DNA of 64,000 nucleotides from Propionibacteriaceae bacterium (lineage in GTDB: Bacteria > Actinomycetota > Actinomycetes > Propionibacteriales > Propionibacteriaceae): NCBI GenBank assembly GCA_031265875.1, contig JAISCA010000048.1:62001-126000 (forward strand). The letters run 5' to 3'. A model generated the notes under the pieces. The model saw only the letters and a program-made list of their open reading frames with translations. It had not been told where the DNA came from and did not search any database. The stretch's first letter is position 1; each line of letters begins with the position of its first letter. The position numbers and the translations under genes are program-made. Shown here in pieces: positions 642 to 25,494 of the stretch.

Positions 642-1366
642 GGGCTGTCCTCCAAGAATCGTCTATTCAAATACGGATTGTCGGCGCGCTCAGTCGCCAT
701 GGTGGTGGCGGGACCGTGGCCGGGCCAAACTCCCCAGTCGTCGTCCAGGGCTAAGACGACCTGGCGCAGACTACGCCTCATCTGTTCCATCGATCCGCCG
801 GGCAGATCGGTCCGTCCGATCGACCCGGCGAAGAGGACGTCGCCACTGAAGCAAAGCTTGGTCAGGTGGGACAGGCCGGGCAGCGGCCGGCCGGCCAGGT
901 CGCGCAAGGGCTGGTCCACCTCCCGCAGCAGATACAGCACCGAGCCCGGAGTGTGGCCAGGAGCGGAGACGACCTCGATCGCGCAACCGGCTAGCTCTAA
1001 GACCTGGCCGTGATCGACTGATTCGACCCGGCCGGGGGCCGGCCAGCGGTCCGAACCCAGCAACTGGCGCACCAGGACGGGTTCCAAGCCCAGCCCAGGC
1101 TGAGTCAGCAGGTCGCGGTCCCCGGCCTGGATGAAGACCGGAGCCTGGAAGCGGTCGGCCAACTCGGCCGCGTCCGCCACATGGTCGATATGGCCGTGGC
1201 TGCAGAGCACACCGGCCAAGCTCCAGGAATGACGCTCCAACAGCTCGGAGCAGGCCTCAGCCGCGCCCCAGCCCGGGTCGATGACCAAGGCTGGCCCAGC
1301 TAGCTGGCGGCTCAGGACGTAACAGTTCTCACCCCAAAGTCGGGTCACGATCCGCTCAAGGAACAC
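638..1366 (-). CDS. MBL-fold metal hydrolase (glyoxalase II-like)
   Basis: Predicted cytoplasmic metallo-beta-lactamase-fold hydrolase of the glyoxalase II-like group, whose substrates are usually thioesters such as S-lactoylglutathione analogues; the real substrate is unknown. The metal-binding motif HGHIDHVAD is present near residue 55, with a later HTPGS motif, SGDVLF and a C-terminal PGHGP. I chose the GTG at 1366, which gives VFLERIV and the family's usual distance to NCYVL. A -10-like TAGAGT (1379 to 1374 on the minus strand) ends 7 nt before it. The frame stays open to an ATG at 1399, but that codon would overlap the start of the divergent DUF349 gene. The stop overlaps hisS by 4 bp. 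Confidence 0.88.
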   Translation of the reverse strand: MFLERIVTRLWGENCYVLSRQLAGPALVIDPGWGAAEACSELLERHSWSLAGVLCSHGHIDHVADAAELADRFQAPVFIQAGDRDLLTQPGLGLEPVLVRQLLGSDRWPAPGRVESVDHGQVLELAGCAIEVVSAPGHTPGSVLYLLREVDQPLRDLAGRPLPGLSHLTKLCFSGDVLFAGSIGRTDLPGGSMEQMRRSLRQVVLALDDDWGVWPGHGPATTMATERADNPYLNRRFLEDSP

Positions 1367-1397
1367 AGCAGGCACTCTATCGGGCAAAATAGGGGCC

Positions 1398-2639
1398 ATG
1401 ACTGAGACTGCAAGGCCTGCCGCCTTCGGTCGTGTCGACGCGGACGGGACTGTCTACGTCATCACGCCTGAAGGTGAACGCATGGTCGGACAAATCCCTG
1501 ACAGCACCGCTGAGGAAGCTTTGGCTTTCTTCGAGCGCCGCTTCGAGGCCTTGCGTGTCGAAGCTGACTTGTTAGTGCAGAGAGTCAAAGCGGGGATCGC
1601 CAACCCGCAGGAGTCGCGTCGTTCCTTGAACTCCCTCAAGCGCAATATCTTGTCCGCCAACGCGGTCGGCGACCTGGCCGGCTTGGCCGCCGGCTTGGAC
1701 CAGCAGATCAGGCCCCTCATCGGCCAGGTCGAAAGCCAGATCAATGAGGAGCGGACCCGTCAGACGGAGGAGATCAAGGCCCGCAAAGAGGCCCTGACGG
1801 CGCAGGCCGAGGAGATCGCCGCCAGCGATGACTGGCGCCACGGCATAGCCCGCCTGCAGGAGATAGTGGACGAGTGGAAGGGGCTGCCCCACTTAGCCAG
1901 CGACGACGAGCTGTGGAGCCGCTTCGCCGCCGCCCGCGCCGCCTACAGCCGGCGGCGCAAGAGCCATATGGCTAGTCGGGCCAGCCAGTTCGAGACCGTC
2001 CGGCAGGTCAAGGAAGGGCTCCTGAAAGAGGCTGAGGCGCTGGCCGAGTCGAGCGATTGGCGCGACACCGCTCAGGCCTTCCGCGATCTGATGGACCGCT
2101 GGCGGGCCGCCGGCAGCGCCTCCAAGATCGTCAACGATGAACAGTGGTCCCGTTTCCGGGCCTACCAGGATCGTTTCTTCACTCGCCGGCGTGAGGTCTT
2201 CGCCGCCCACGACGCCGAGAACCAGGCCAATCTGGCGGCCAAGACCAGCCTGCTGGAGGAGGCTGAGGCGGCCATTCTGCCCGTCACCGACCTGGCCGCC
2301 TCCCGCGCCGCCTTCCGCCAATTCGTGGACCAGTTCAACCGCATCGGCCGGGTGCCCTGGGAGGACTCCAAGGTCATCGACGCCCGGGTGCAGGCCTTGG
2401 AAGCCGCCATCGACGAGGTGGCCCGCCGGGAATGGGCCCGGACCGACCCTCAGACCAGGCTGCGCGCCCAAGAGACGGTGTCCCTCTTCAGCGATCAGGT
2501 GGCCAAAGCCGAAGCCGCCCTGGCCAAAGCCGAGGCCAAGGGCGACCAATCCGCCATCGACCAAGCCAAAGCCTCCATCGCGACTTACCAATCCTGGCTC
2601 GACCAAGCCAACCAGACGCTGGATGAGATCACCCGCTGA
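1398..2639 (+). CDS. DUF349 domain-containing protein
   Basis: A 413-residue, highly charged, mostly alpha-helical protein without signal peptide or membrane segment. The N-terminus AFGRVDADGTVYV followed by GERMVGQIP is typical of actinobacterial DUF349 proteins. Repeated blocks of about 75 residues carry the DUF349 pattern: DWRHGIARLQEIVDEWK near residue 145, DWRDTAQAFRDLMDRWR near 220, and a third near 300. The tail is a coiled coil rich in Ala, Lys and Glu. The molecular function is not established; the genus-level neighbourhood with rel and the MBL hydrolase is common in this phylum. The ATG at 1398 matches the family start and leaves only 31 bp to the divergent gene, so two promoters must be packed there. 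Confidence 0.9.
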   Translation: MTETARPAAFGRVDADGTVYVITPEGERMVGQIPDSTAEEALAFFERRFEALRVEADLLVQRVKAGIANPQESRRSLNSLKRNILSANAVGDLAGLAAGLDQQIRPLIGQVESQINEERTRQTEEIKARKEALTAQAEEIAASDDWRHGIARLQEIVDEWKGLPHLASDDELWSRFAAARAAYSRRRKSHMASRASQFETVRQVKEGLLKEAEALAESSDWRDTAQAFRDLMDRWRAAGSASKIVNDEQWSRFRAYQDRFFTRRREVFAAHDAENQANLAAKTSLLEEAEAAILPVTDLAASRAAFRQFVDQFNRIGRVPWEDSKVIDARVQALEAAIDEVARREWARTDPQTRLRAQETVSLFSDQVAKAEAALAKAEAKGDQSAIDQAKASIATYQSWLDQANQTLDEITR

Positions 2640-2692
2640 GGACCTCCGGCCAGGGCCACTGCCGGCCTGGAGCGGACGGTCTCGAGCCGGAG

Positions 2693-2715
2693 GCCGGCTC
2701 AGGCTTTGAGCCGGC
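2693..2715. terminator. Hairpin between convergent DUF349 gene and rel
   Basis: A perfect 9-bp stem (GCCGGCTCA pairing with TGAGCCGGC) with a 5-nt GGCTT loop. It overlaps the last codons and stop of rel and lies about 50 bp past the DUF349 gene stop, so it could end transcription from both sides. There is no T-run, which is usual for GC-rich actinobacteria. A weaker stem (GAGCCG with CGGCTC) overlaps its left arm and could compete. Confidence 0.5.
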
Positions 2716-4996
2716 GCACCTCGGTCACTTCGCGCACCGAGCGCAGCCTTCTGAGAACGTGGTCGAGGAACTTGGGATCGGGGATCTCGAAACTGAGTTG
2801 AGCCCTCAGGGTGCGGCTACGGTCGGTCTTGACCGTGGCCGAGACGATCGAGACCCGGTCTTCGGCCAACGAGGTCGTGATGTCGGCCAGCATCCCGGTC
2901 CGGTCCAAGCCCTCGATCTGAACGCTGACCAGGAAATTGTTCTGGACCCGCTGATCCCAAGCCACCGGAACGATCCGCTCCGGCGTGGCCAAGAGGCCGG
3001 CGACGTTACGGCAGCTGCGCCGATGGACTGAGATGCCTTGGCTGTGGGTGACGAAGCCGATGATGTCGTCGCCCGGCACCGGCGTGCAGCAGCGGGCCAG
3101 TTTGACCCACATGTTGGTGTCGCCCTCGACCTTGATGCCCGGGTTGGAAGAGTTGGTCCGAGGCGACCGGACGGTGAAGACCGGCCGGTCTTCCAGGCTC
3201 TCCTCGGCCGCCTCCTCCGGGCCGCCCTCGACCGCGATCAGACGCTCCACGACGTGCTGGGCCCCGATCTTACCCTCGCCCAGGGCGGCGTAGAGGGAGG
3301 AGACGTCGTTGATGTCGAGGTCCTCGGCCACCGCCGTCAGATAGGGCAAGGTGAGCAGACGCTGCAAGGGCAGCCCGGAGCGGCGCAATTGCTTGGCCAG
3401 GGCCTCCTTGCCCTGCTCGATGTGCTCGTCCCGGCGCTCGCGACGGAAGAACTGACTGATCTTCTGCTTGGCCCTAGGCGACTTGACGAATTCGAGCCAG
3501 TCCCGCGACGGGCCGGCGTCCGGAGCCCGGCTGGTCAGGATCTCGCAGACGTCGCAATCCTCTAGCTTGCTGTCGAGCCGGACCAGTTTGCCGTTGACCC
3601 GGGCTCCGATGCAATGGTGGCCGACCTCGGTGTGGACGGCGTAAGCGAAGTCGACCGGAGTGGAGCCGACCGGCAGGAAGATCAACTCGCTCTTGGGCGT
3701 GAAGGCCATCACCTCCTTGCCCTTGAGATCGAAGATCAAGGAGTCCAAGAAGACCTCGGGGTCGGCCTCCTCGCTCTGCCACTGGGACAGCCGCCGGACC
3801 CAGGACAGATCCATCGGGTCGAGCCGGCTGGAACGGGTCGTGCCCTTCGTCTCCTGCTTGTACTTCCAGTGCGCCGCCACGCCGTATTCGGCGTTACGGT
3901 GCATCTCCTGAGTCCTGATCTGGAACTCGACCGGTTTGCCCTGGGGACCCACCACGGTGGTGTGGATCGACTCGTAGGTCGAGAACTTGGGGTTGGCGAT
4001 GTAGTCCTTGACCCGGCCCGGCACCGGCACCCAGGTCTCATGGATGGCGCCCATGGCGACATAGCAGTCGTCGTTGCTGTCGACCAGGACACGCACTCCG
4101 AGCAGGTCGTAGATGTCGGTGAAGTCGCGCCCCCGCACCATCATCTTCTGGTAGATCGAGTAATAGTGCTTGGGCCGGCCGTAGACGATGGCCTCGATGC
4201 CGCGCTGTTTGAGCGCCTCGGTGGCGATCTGGGTGACCTGGCTGAGGATGCGGGCGCGGGCCGGCTGCTCGGCCGCCACCTGTTGCACCAGTTGGTCGTA
4301 CAACTTGGGCTGCATGGTGGCGAAGGCCAGATCCTCTAGCTCCCACTTGATCGTGTTCATGCCCAGACGGTGGGCCAGGGGGGCGTAAATCTCCAAGGTC
4401 TCCTGCGAGATCCGGTTCTGCTTGTCCGGCCTGAGGGCGCCGATGGTGCGCATATTGTGCAGCCGGTCGGCCAACTTGATGACGACGACGCGGAAATCTT
4501 GCACCATGGCCTGGATCAACTTGCGGATGGTCTCGGCTTTGGCCACCTGGCCGTGGGTCTCACGATCCAGCTTGGTCACACCGTCGACCAATTTGGCCAC
4601 CTCAGGGCCGAAGTCGCCGGCCAACTGGGCCAAGGTGTAAGCAGTGTCCTCGACCGTGTCATGGAGCAGGGCCGCCACCAGGGTGGTCGCGGTCATGCCC
4701 AGTTCGGCCGCGATGGTGGCGACGGCCAGGGGGTGGGTGATGTAGGGGTCGCCGGACTTCCGGGCCTGGCCCCGGTGATAGAAGTCGGCCACCTGGAAGG
4801 CCCGCTCCAGCAGGGTCAGATCGGTCTCGGGATGGCTCTGCCGCACGACCGCGAAGAGAGGTTGCAGAACGGCGTCGTAAGTCGTCGTGACCTTGGGGGC
4901 GGTCAGACGGGCCAGCCGTTGGGACAGCTTCAACTTGGGCGGTTCCGACTGGGCGGGCAGCCCGGTGGTCGTGCTGTCGACGGTCTCAGTCGCCAT
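2699..4996 (-). CDS. rel: Bifunctional (p)ppGpp synthetase/hydrolase Rel
   Basis: Makes and degrades the stringent-response alarmone (p)ppGpp on ribosomes. At 765 residues it has the full long-RSH layout. The N-terminal HD hydrolase domain carries HDTVEDT and RLHNMRT (about 110-190). The synthetase domain carries DIYDLLGVRV and YESIHTTV (about 290-370). Its RVKD sits at the RXKD motif position typical of bifunctional Rel rather than the EXDD of RelA. A TGS domain follows (MAFTPKSELIFLPVGSTPVDFAYA), then a zinc-finger region (ARCCTPVPGDDIIGFVTHSQG) and a C-terminal ACT domain (IEGLDRTGMLADITT). The ATG at 4996 has a GGGAGG ribosome site 6 nt upstream. It is preceded by a 79-bp element shared with the YbaK-type gene. 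Confidence 0.97.
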   Translation of the reverse strand: MATETVDSTTTGLPAQSEPPKLKLSQRLARLTAPKVTTTYDAVLQPLFAVVRQSHPETDLTLLERAFQVADFYHRGQARKSGDPYITHPLAVATIAAELGMTATTLVAALLHDTVEDTAYTLAQLAGDFGPEVAKLVDGVTKLDRETHGQVAKAETIRKLIQAMVQDFRVVVIKLADRLHNMRTIGALRPDKQNRISQETLEIYAPLAHRLGMNTIKWELEDLAFATMQPKLYDQLVQQVAAEQPARARILSQVTQIATEALKQRGIEAIVYGRPKHYYSIYQKMMVRGRDFTDIYDLLGVRVLVDSNDDCYVAMGAIHETWVPVPGRVKDYIANPKFSTYESIHTTVVGPQGKPVEFQIRTQEMHRNAEYGVAAHWKYKQETKGTTRSSRLDPMDLSWVRRLSQWQSEEADPEVFLDSLIFDLKGKEVMAFTPKSELIFLPVGSTPVDFAYAVHTEVGHHCIGARVNGKLVRLDSKLEDCDVCEILTSRAPDAGPSRDWLEFVKSPRAKQKISQFFRRERRDEHIEQGKEALAKQLRRSGLPLQRLLTLPYLTAVAEDLDINDVSSLYAALGEGKIGAQHVVERLIAVEGGPEEAAEESLEDRPVFTVRSPRTNSSNPGIKVEGDTNMWVKLARCCTPVPGDDIIGFVTHSQGISVHRRSCRNVAGLLATPERIVPVAWDQRVQNNFLVSVQIEGLDRTGMLADITTSLAEDRVSIVSATVKTDRSRTLRAQLSFEIPDPKFLDHVLRRLRSVREVTEVRRLKA

Positions 4997-5028: not shown

Positions 5029-5034
5029 ATCCTA
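5029..5034 (-). promoter_or_regulatory. Putative rel -10 box
   Basis: TAGGAT on the minus strand, 32 bp before the rel ATG, at the downstream edge of the shared 79-bp element. No good TTGACA-like -35 lies at 17 bp. The nearest candidate, TTGAGA, is 14 bp upstream, and the same 14-bp spacing to TATCCT is seen in the second copy of the element. Confidence 0.4.
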
Positions 5035-5111
5035 TCGACTCTGGCGAGTCTCAAGACTTCAATCGGCTCACTCACAAGCGTGAACGCTCGACGTTCGCCT
5101 CAATCGTGTCT
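5033..5111 (-). promoter_or_regulatory. Duplicated 79-bp intergenic element, copy A (before rel)
   Basis: Read toward rel, these 79 bp align without gaps to 24868-24946 before the YbaK-type gene, at roughly 85 percent identity, with the first 27 bp identical. The element contains a 16-bp dyad (5075-5090, arms CGAGCGT and ACGCTTG around TC), a conserved GTGAGTGAGC block, then TTGAGACTC and GTCGATA running into the -10-like box. Distance from the element to the start codon is 36 bp here. It occupies about half of the secF-rel gap (4997-5136). Whether it acts as operator, promoter or RNA leader cannot be told from sequence alone. Confidence 0.7.
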
Positions 5112-5136
5112 GACCGCCCCGGCGACCTCAGGCCGG

Positions 5137-24737: not shown

Positions 24738-24867
24738 CAGGGCGCTCCTTCGAATCTCGGTCCTACAGACTACTGGGCCAGCCCGGCCGGCCCGAACCGT
24801 CCGGAACTGGCGCCCTGGGGCCGGTCCGCCCACCAGTCGCCGGCCGGGCTCAGGCGACCGACTGACT

Positions 24868-24946
24868 AGACACGATTGAGGCGAACGTCGAGCGCTCGCG
24901 CTCGTGAGTGAGCTGATTGAGTGTTTGAGACTCACAAGGGTCGATA
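24868..24946 (+). promoter_or_regulatory. Duplicated 79-bp intergenic element, copy B (before YbaK-type gene)
   Basis: The same 79-bp element as 5033-5111, here reading toward the deacylase gene. It lies between the divergent hrpA and deacylase starts (24738-24972), a 235-bp gap. The dyad CGAGCGCTCGCGCTCG (24889-24904) has two arms of 7 bp around TC; compared with copy A, substitutions in opposite arms keep every pair. The stretch ATTGAGT-N7-ACTCACA (24916-24936) resembles the HspR HAIR sequence CTTGAGT-N7-ACTCAAG, but copy A keeps this poorly. The rest of the gap toward hrpA (24738-24867) holds a possible TAGTCT -10 for hrpA at 24767-24772 and nothing else clear. Confidence 0.7.
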
Positions 24947-24970
24947 TCCTGCCCTGTCGATATCCTGCCC
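24940..24970 (+). repeat. 16-bp tandem repeat carrying two -10 boxes
   Basis: The unit GTCGATATCCTGCCC occurs twice with a 16-bp period directly before the deacylase ATG. Each copy carries TATCCT. The second TATCCT (24961-24966) is followed by exactly 6 nt and then the ATG at 24973, the spacing expected when transcription starts at the A of ATG. No Shine-Dalgarno sequence is present, so this mRNA is probably leaderless. The first unit overlaps the end of the 79-bp element. Confidence 0.7.
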
Positions 24971-24972
24971 CC

Positions 24973-25494
24973 ATGGCCAAGAAGACCACGGCCGGCACCC
25001 CCGGCCTGCTCGCCCTGACCCGGGCCGGCGTCGAGCACCGGGTGCACGAGTACGACCACGACCCCAAAGCCACCAACTTCGGGGCCGAGAGCGTGGCCCT
25101 GTTAGGTCTCGATCCCAAGCGGGTCTTCAAGACCCTCCTGGCCACCGTCGAACGCCCCGGCCGCGACGAGTTAGTGGTGGCGGTGGTGCCAGTGGCCGGC
25201 CAACTCGACCTCAAGGCCTTAGCCGGCGCCGTCGAGTCCAAACGGGCCGCCATGGCCGAGCCGGCGGCGGCCGAACGGGCCACCGGCTACGTGGTGGGCG
25301 GCATCTCCCCCTTCGGCCAGCGACAGCGCCATACGACCGTGCTGGACCGGTCCGCTTTGGACTATGAGACCGTCTTCGTCTCGGCCGGCCGTCGGGGCGC
25401 CCAAGTCGAACTGGCGCCGACGGCTTTGGTGGCTCTGACCCAAGCCCGGCTGGCCGACATCGCCCGCCCCGACCGGCCCAGCCGACCGTCCTGA
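24973..25494 (+). CDS. ybaK: YbaK/EbsC-type Cys-tRNA(Pro) deacylase
   Basis: Trans-editing protein that hydrolyses Cys mischarged on tRNA(Pro), protecting against proline-to-cysteine errors. It has 173 residues. Family marks are TPGLLALTRAGVEHRVHEYDHDP at the N-terminus, VFKTLLA, VAVVPVAGQLDLKALA, the lysine-containing ESKRAAMAEP, GYVVGGISPFGQRQ and VFVSAGRRGAQVELAP. The ATG at 24973 matches the family start and sits exactly at leaderless spacing from TATCCT. It is a single gene, divergent from hrpA and followed by a bidirectional hairpin. It shares its 79-bp upstream element with rel, linking amino-acid starvation response and tRNA quality control by inference. Confidence 0.93.
   Translation: MAKKTTAGTPGLLALTRAGVEHRVHEYDHDPKATNFGAESVALLGLDPKRVFKTLLATVERPGRDELVVAVVPVAGQLDLKALAGAVESKRAAMAEPAAAERATGYVVGGISPFGQRQRHTTVLDRSALDYETVFVSAGRRGAQVELAPTALVALTQARLADIARPDRPSRPS

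Follow-up and report, generated by a model that had tools for sequence, protein, structure and literature searches.

The window considered here, a contiguous stretch of 64,000 nucleotides from the genome of a member of the Propionibacteriaceae, contains two copies of a short repeat. As to the prediction that neither copy sits in a transposon, the ORFs on either side look like secF-type, rel, helicase-type and ybaK-type genes. The rel gene (2699–4996, minus strand) shows the Pfam domain RelA_SpoT and the ybaK-type gene (24973–25494, plus strand) the domain tRNA_edit, in agreement with the original prediction, which took the two downstream genes to code for a stringent-response enzyme and a tRNA editing enzyme. 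The copies at 5033–5111 (minus) and 24868–24946 (plus) form a gapless alignment of 79 nt with 86% identity, much like the predicted pair of about 85%, while the remaining repeat pairs of at least 40 nt in the window are, among the matches listed, only 64–76% alike. The unit of the family spans 80 nt when the dinucleotide at each end, usually TA, is included, so that the copies are delimited as 5033–5112 (minus; copy 1, with left end CA and right end TA) and 24867–24946 (plus; copy 2, with TA at both ends). Both read toward their downstream gene, as had been proposed: copy 1 stops 36 nt short of the ATG of rel (4996, minus strand), and 26 nt separate copy 2 from that of the ybaK-type gene (24973). 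A stretch of 15–16 bp that includes the end of copy 2 (TGTCGATATCCTGCCC) is tandemly repeated ahead of the latter ATG (24939–24972).

By sequence and the consensus fold described below, each copy features two GATTGA loop strands (5100–5105 and 5059–5064, minus, in copy 1; 24874–24879 and 24915–24920, plus, in copy 2). These are accompanied by a second hairpin, P4, at 5037–5050 (minus; GACTC GCCA GAGTC) and 24929–24942 (plus; GACTC ACAA GGGTC), respectively. The -10-like box expected beside both copies is present as TAGGAT (5029–5034, minus) and TATCCT (24945–24950, plus), and in each case the TA of the box is the right end of the copy. The same boxes occur without the element in G006, the closest relative that we saw (its Rel shares 92% identity across the 273 residues compared, where the others reach at most 71%). 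A promoter-like pair was found upstream of rel, made up of TTGAGA, which lies within the element, and GATAGT, which lies past its end; none was found in the upstream region of the ybaK-type gene.

We then searched the genome to which the window belongs (3.12 Mb in 70 contigs). Copy 2, used as a DNA query, matched 50 times, and a covariance model built from 23 of this genome's copies gave 71 (E ≤ 1), from which six matches, all below 30 bits, and then two more (21 bits, adjoining tandem copies) were dropped, leaving 63 at 30 bits or more. These 63 copies form 55 loci, of which 53 are intergenic by a crude gene caller (an ad hoc hexamer script rather than a standard gene finder), in surroundings whose coding share ranges from 84% (fetched stretches) to 94% (window). 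Direct head-to-tail arrays of two to four copies account for five of the 55 loci, and at six loci the element provides the TAG stop of the preceding gene. The repeat is short, non-coding, multicopy and intergenic in the manner of a MITE, and the view that the pair in the window is no chance repeat is upheld. A genome-wide profile search of the kind that had been proposed did recover many more copies, and the downstream genes scanned are of mixed function. The original prediction further held that many copies scattered without regard to gene starts, or flanked by target duplications, would point to a plain mobile repeat; this is largely what we observe, the target duplication being a possible one, except that the copies respect genes.

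Setting aside the two loci inside a predicted gene and one with no downstream gene, the element lies on the same strand as the downstream gene in 40 of 52 loci (p = 1.3e-4), with 20 of these ending within 47 nt of its start, whereas the upstream gene is on the same strand in 27 of 53 (p = 1.0). The orientation claimed for the window's pair thus extends to the genome at large, and holds in gaps between co-directional genes, where 24 of 33 loci read with the genes (24 vs 9, p = 0.014); divergent gaps outnumber convergent ones 16 to 3. This bias counts against the mobile-element reading favored below, in that plain random insertion alone offers no explanation for it. A TANNNT motif is found at the right end of 12 of the 19 copies that lie within 60 nt of a start but in only 2 of 24 others (Fisher p = 2e-4), in a set of 43 that leaves out copies below 50 bits, six copies ending in CCAAC and those preceding a tandem unit. 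However, among TAs taken as controls from the last 60 nt ahead of starts, 57 of 156 are themselves part of TANNNT, reducing the excess for the element to a one-sided p of 0.024; -10 boxes are thus plausible, if unproven, landing sites.

The 20 downstream genes scanned with Pfam, out of 38 listed, are functionally mixed, including transketolase, serine hydroxymethyltransferase, a gene of the lipoamide dehydrogenase type, UvrD helicase and DNA methylase, along with dCTP deaminase, a sigma factor, transporters, rel and tRNA_edit. The proposal of common regulation, perhaps by amino-acid supply, finds no support in the copy number (63 copies at 55 loci), these mixed genes and the absence of the element from both equivalent sites in G006, and we set an amino-acid regulon aside on these grounds. 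Effects of single copies on single genes are quite possible.

Comparison with G006 showed both sites of the window in their empty state: copy 1 is missing upstream of rel, where one TA is followed by GGATGGTCG, and copy 2 is missing upstream of the ybaK-type gene, where one TA is followed by TCCTGCCC. A third case comes from a second dispersed repeat of the window's own genome, in which the same TA is filled in L004 and empty in contig C44, defining a 78-bp insertion at TA. This second repeat (with GATTGAACAG...GGTGCTCTGT; L004:1313–1640 and the C44 stretch L027:1231–1463) is partly tandem and receives insertions of the element; the six element copies ending in CCAAC sit at one place within it. 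The fourth is found in G004, where a palindromic repeat carries the element between its two flanks in three instances (L087, L098, L101) and is empty in one (L102). This dispersed repeat (CATTCTGCGCGAAGTCGCAGAATCC), present in L102 and at other loci, is split by the element at one position, and the insertions lie after an A that belongs to CA rather than TA. With the four empty sites in its support, the mobility of the family is almost certain.

The ends of the element are less distinctive. Among the own-genome copies of 60 bits or more, 28 of 52 have TA at both ends and six end in CCAAC. At the ybaK-type locus and the L004/C44 site the empty state has one TA and the filled state two, but the left and right dinucleotides do not clearly covary, so that a true target-site duplication is unproven; the data fit either a duplicated target or an end TA that is part of the unit. 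As terminal inverted repeats, the ends (TAGACAC and TATCGAC) agree at only 4 of 7 bases.

The predicted fold proceeds from a stem P1 through a symmetrical GATTGA/GATTGA loop, a P2 of two to three pairs, a GA/GA loop and a variable P3 stem-loop to the second hairpin P4 and a short tail. The consensus has a predicted energy of -30 kcal/mol (z -3.15) on the strand that reads toward the rel- or ybaK-type gene, compared to -18.2 kcal/mol (z -1.40) on the complement. Two-sided changes were seen at 6 of 23 pairs among 23 own-genome copies (19 cells vs 5.2 in shuffled controls), at 21 of 23 among 41 sequences from eight genomes (203 vs 62.3) and at all 23 among 50 further sequences outside model building (245 vs 72.5), with the caveat that A3 and A4, two alignments made with a model of this structure, lean toward it. 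The covariation score for the 50 further sequences is 0.543, against 0.160 when shuffled and at most 0.080 in slid controls. G-U outnumbers A-C at paired positions (64 to 18 and 47 to 21), which favors the strand reading toward rel and ybaK as the folding one. The fold is therefore very probably real, whereas its being needed for movement is an even question. The folded form would be a single strand, either RNA or single-stranded DNA, and by analogy with known RNA motifs the GATTGA and GA loops may be runs of sheared G-A pairs.

The sequence itself has a narrow distribution: the DNA consensus matched only the own genome among 57. The covariance model (E ≤ 0.1) reached 8 of the 57, all from the same genus, with 67 matches in the own genome, 13 in G004 and one to three in each of the six others; the copies outside the own genome differ in sequence while retaining the architecture. 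The element of the own genome is thus one branch, specific to this genome, of a broader family with a common fold. A pattern for this family, GATTGAG-N(16-46)-GAG-N(1-2)-GATTGA, was found in 26 of 293 genomes (8 of 37 genera) of the order, with one reversed-control match among the matches listed, and in 24 of 394 genomes of the class, some of the matches in both sets appearing by eye to be chance. Outside the order, six genomes belonging to four families (G384, G354, G369, G416, G580, G628) yielded copies with a paired P1. An exact 21-base search of genome contigs returned two single matches.

We found no Rfam 15 family reaching its gathering score in the window, and at 18 element loci (6 + 12) searched to E 1 no listed match fell on the element beyond the tRNA edge; a known riboswitch or other Rfam family is rejected for want of a score at family threshold. 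Phage cargo was likewise dismissed, one query of a phage collection giving no match. A plasmid origin is not supported by the six matching records (from Nocardia, Mycolicibacterium, Nonomuraea and Curtobacterium), which match only the tRNA part of the query; these hosts would fit an actinobacterial class. At least 120 stretches of viral contigs fit the pattern, and six of these 120 have the strict core, none being element-like by eye. The literature on structured RNA, tRNA-adjacent repeats and the GAUUGA loop yielded no account of such a family, within a search that mostly left subscription papers, and preprints, outside its scope.

We next turn to an association with tRNA genes. P1 starts where a same-strand tRNA or tmRNA gene ends in 19 of 67 copies (66 from other genomes and one from the own genome), with GATTGA lying 2 or 4 bases past the 3' end called by ARAGORN. 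The abutted genes are Leu(TAA) (5), Leu(TAG) (3), Leu(CAG) (1), Val(CAC) (2), Val(TAC) (2), Ile(GAT) (2), Met(CAT) (2), Glu(CTC) (1) and tmRNA (1). The 67 are those that the pattern and the model listed first per genome, once repeated contexts and cores in which P1 had under 4 of its 6 pairs were removed (one retained row, L272, looks like chance), and 19/67 is hence not an unbiased rate. A figure nearer to one comes from G271, where the model alone gave 16 copies, 4 of them linked in this way: one each lies directly against Leu(TAG), Leu(TAA) and Glu(CTC), and the fourth, a weak hit (E 0.04) with no intact GATTGA, against tmRNA.

In the window's own genome 59 loci were scanned for tRNAs, and at a single one of these the element abuts a tRNA, namely Leu(TAA) (L080); this site is common to G006 (L085). 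Here the tRNA and the element are predicted to fold as adjacent domains, with P1 beginning at the very next base past the acceptor stem, and between the two genomes P3 and P4 differ yet remain paired; such compensation suits a resident function as well as movement. In two further cases, L086 (G015) and L104 (G004), the element is preceded by a T-arm-like tRNA 3' remnant, of the kind that integrated islands leave, and in L086 the element also lies about 190 nt past a tmRNA gene.

The search for a mobilizing enzyme provided no good candidate. The RAYT transposase domain Y1_Tnp was detected in 2 of 33 genomes, neither being the own genome or G004, and RAYT mobilization is rejected on this account. 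The IS110 domain Transposase_20 was detected in 6 of 15 genomes including the own one, with some matches weak, and in none of G628, G009, G012 and G180. When the covariance model was run on five IS110 stretches, it found only the tmRNA-linked copy near one of the insertion sequences and one weak hit (E 0.07). The IS110 ends seen in G271 (the right end of one insertion sequence and both ends of another) are unlike those of the element, and with almost no model hits in these stretches IS110 mobilization is rejected as well. In G271 (L306), an IS110-type insertion (1033–3201) lies about 0.3 kb from the tmRNA-linked element (652–731). Reverse transcriptase (RVT_1) was found in 7 of 15 genomes, none of them the own genome, G271 or G628, and an enzyme available to a SINE-like retro-element is to that extent lacking. 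Hairpin 3' ends were no more frequent ahead of 40 non-tRNA copies than at 2740 control sites, and we reject them as the general target.

We therefore favor, with a probability of roughly 0.7, the reading that one and the same small element, mobile but non-autonomous and with a folded strand that is important to it, was inserted upstream of both rel and ybaK. Under this reading, the element would have multiplied to dozens of copies in the own genome, with one strand, as RNA or single-stranded DNA, folding into two hairpins with the GATTGA/GATTGA and GA/GA loops. A putative protein would recognize this fold and join the unit to a target A. Insertion at tRNA 3' ends would do no harm to the mature tRNA, which could account for their frequency as sites, perhaps together with recognition of these ends. 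In the own lineage the target would be TA, and in a GC-rich genome such a preference would lead copies to accumulate at gene ends (TAG) and -10 boxes (TANNNT). For rel and ybaK the likely consequence would be the replacement of the -35 region, with no signal shared between them. Our verdict is that these are two ordinary insertions of an unusual element; the lesson from rel and ybaK is that a regulon does not necessarily follow from the similarity of two upstream sequences.

The bias toward downstream genes, the 20 copies ending within 47 nt of a start, the TANNNT at right ends and the promoter-like pair at rel would all suit a cis-regulatory element shared by rel, ybaK and other genes, acting as a portable promoter half or a leader RNA. 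We nevertheless hold this to be improbable, given the mixed downstream genes, the absence of the element from both sites in G006, the frequency of TANNNT at control TAs and the lack of a promoter-like pair at ybaK. A second alternative is a MITE of the classical TA-specific kind, mobilized by a transposase of the IS630/Tc1 type, its fold being incidental or a leftover: TA at both ends and the 78-bp insertion at TA agree with this, as does the TA at the ends of RUP, ERIC and similar small repeats in what part of one review describes (PMC2229807). This we regard as rather unlikely, since the ends are barely inverted, the relatives in G004 insert after CA, and neither a fold conserved across the class nor exact tRNA ends would be expected of such an element.

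The tRNA association opens two other readings. A resident RNA could work at tRNA 3' ends, in processing, in stability or as a small RNA released with the tRNA, with the other copies as spill-over; the same-strand abutment to many kinds of tRNA and tmRNA genes and the paired differences at Leu(TAA) between the own genome and G006 would be in keeping with this. It is, however, doubtful in view of the patchy distribution of the pattern in the order and the class, part of it due to chance, and of the single abutting locus among the 59 scanned in the own genome. Alternatively, movement might proceed through RNA in a SINE-like manner, with the folded RNA joined to the 3' ends of tRNAs or other RNAs and copied back into DNA. 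The exact abutment in many isoacceptors, always on the same strand in the 19 cases, the coincidence of the folding strand with the one reading toward rel and ybaK, and the head-to-tail tandems speak for this; without RVT_1 in the own genome, G271 or G628, and with no enrichment of hairpin 3' ends at non-tRNA copies, we consider it highly unlikely. In a fuller version, to which we give little credence, an RNA of about 80 nt would derive from tRNA-linked copies, be freed by tRNA 3' processing, be joined to the 3' A of tRNAs, tmRNA or other RNAs and be rewritten into DNA. If true, this would explain the exact abutment, the shared strand, the tandems and the selection of a fold without inverted ends.

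The usual explanation for small repeats in bacteria is that they are stunted insertion sequences, with inverted ends. The element departs from this in that its ends are unremarkable, yet its internal fold is kept by paired changes across the class and tRNA 3' ends of various kinds are hit exactly. If the fold is what is recognized, the route of movement would be one that acts on a folded strand. Like REP and REPIN sequences, it is a short folded repeat without a gene of its own, but it differs from those moved by RAYT in the scarcity of Y1_Tnp noted above. The MIRU of mycobacteria are intergenic units of similar length in direct tandem; by description, the likeness being one of arrangement rather than of compared sequences, the element resembles them in its tandem units and in the six copies supplying the TAG stop of the preceding gene. 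With the structured RNA families of Rfam 15 it shares the defining kind of compensatory changes, although no family there matches it at gathering score in the window and no listed match falls on it at the 18 loci. As described in parts of two reviews, ERIC, RUP, Correia/NEMIS and CIR are repeats of less than 200 bp, non-coding, mostly intergenic, present in many copies and ending in TA, and some of this type fold as RNA or carry promoters (PMC2229807, PMC10969869). So far as those parts go, the element agrees with them in length, coding status, location, copy number and TA ends, but differs in its lack of clear inverted ends, its multi-loop fold kept across the class and its exact tRNA 3'-end sites. 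Neither review uses the word tRNA in its main text (PMC2229807, PMC10969869).

A few of the copies in the window's own genome are hybrid or broken: one on a 3.8-kb contig has a changed right end (L074:145–235), and in two others (L072, L073) the left end is swapped for another hairpin.
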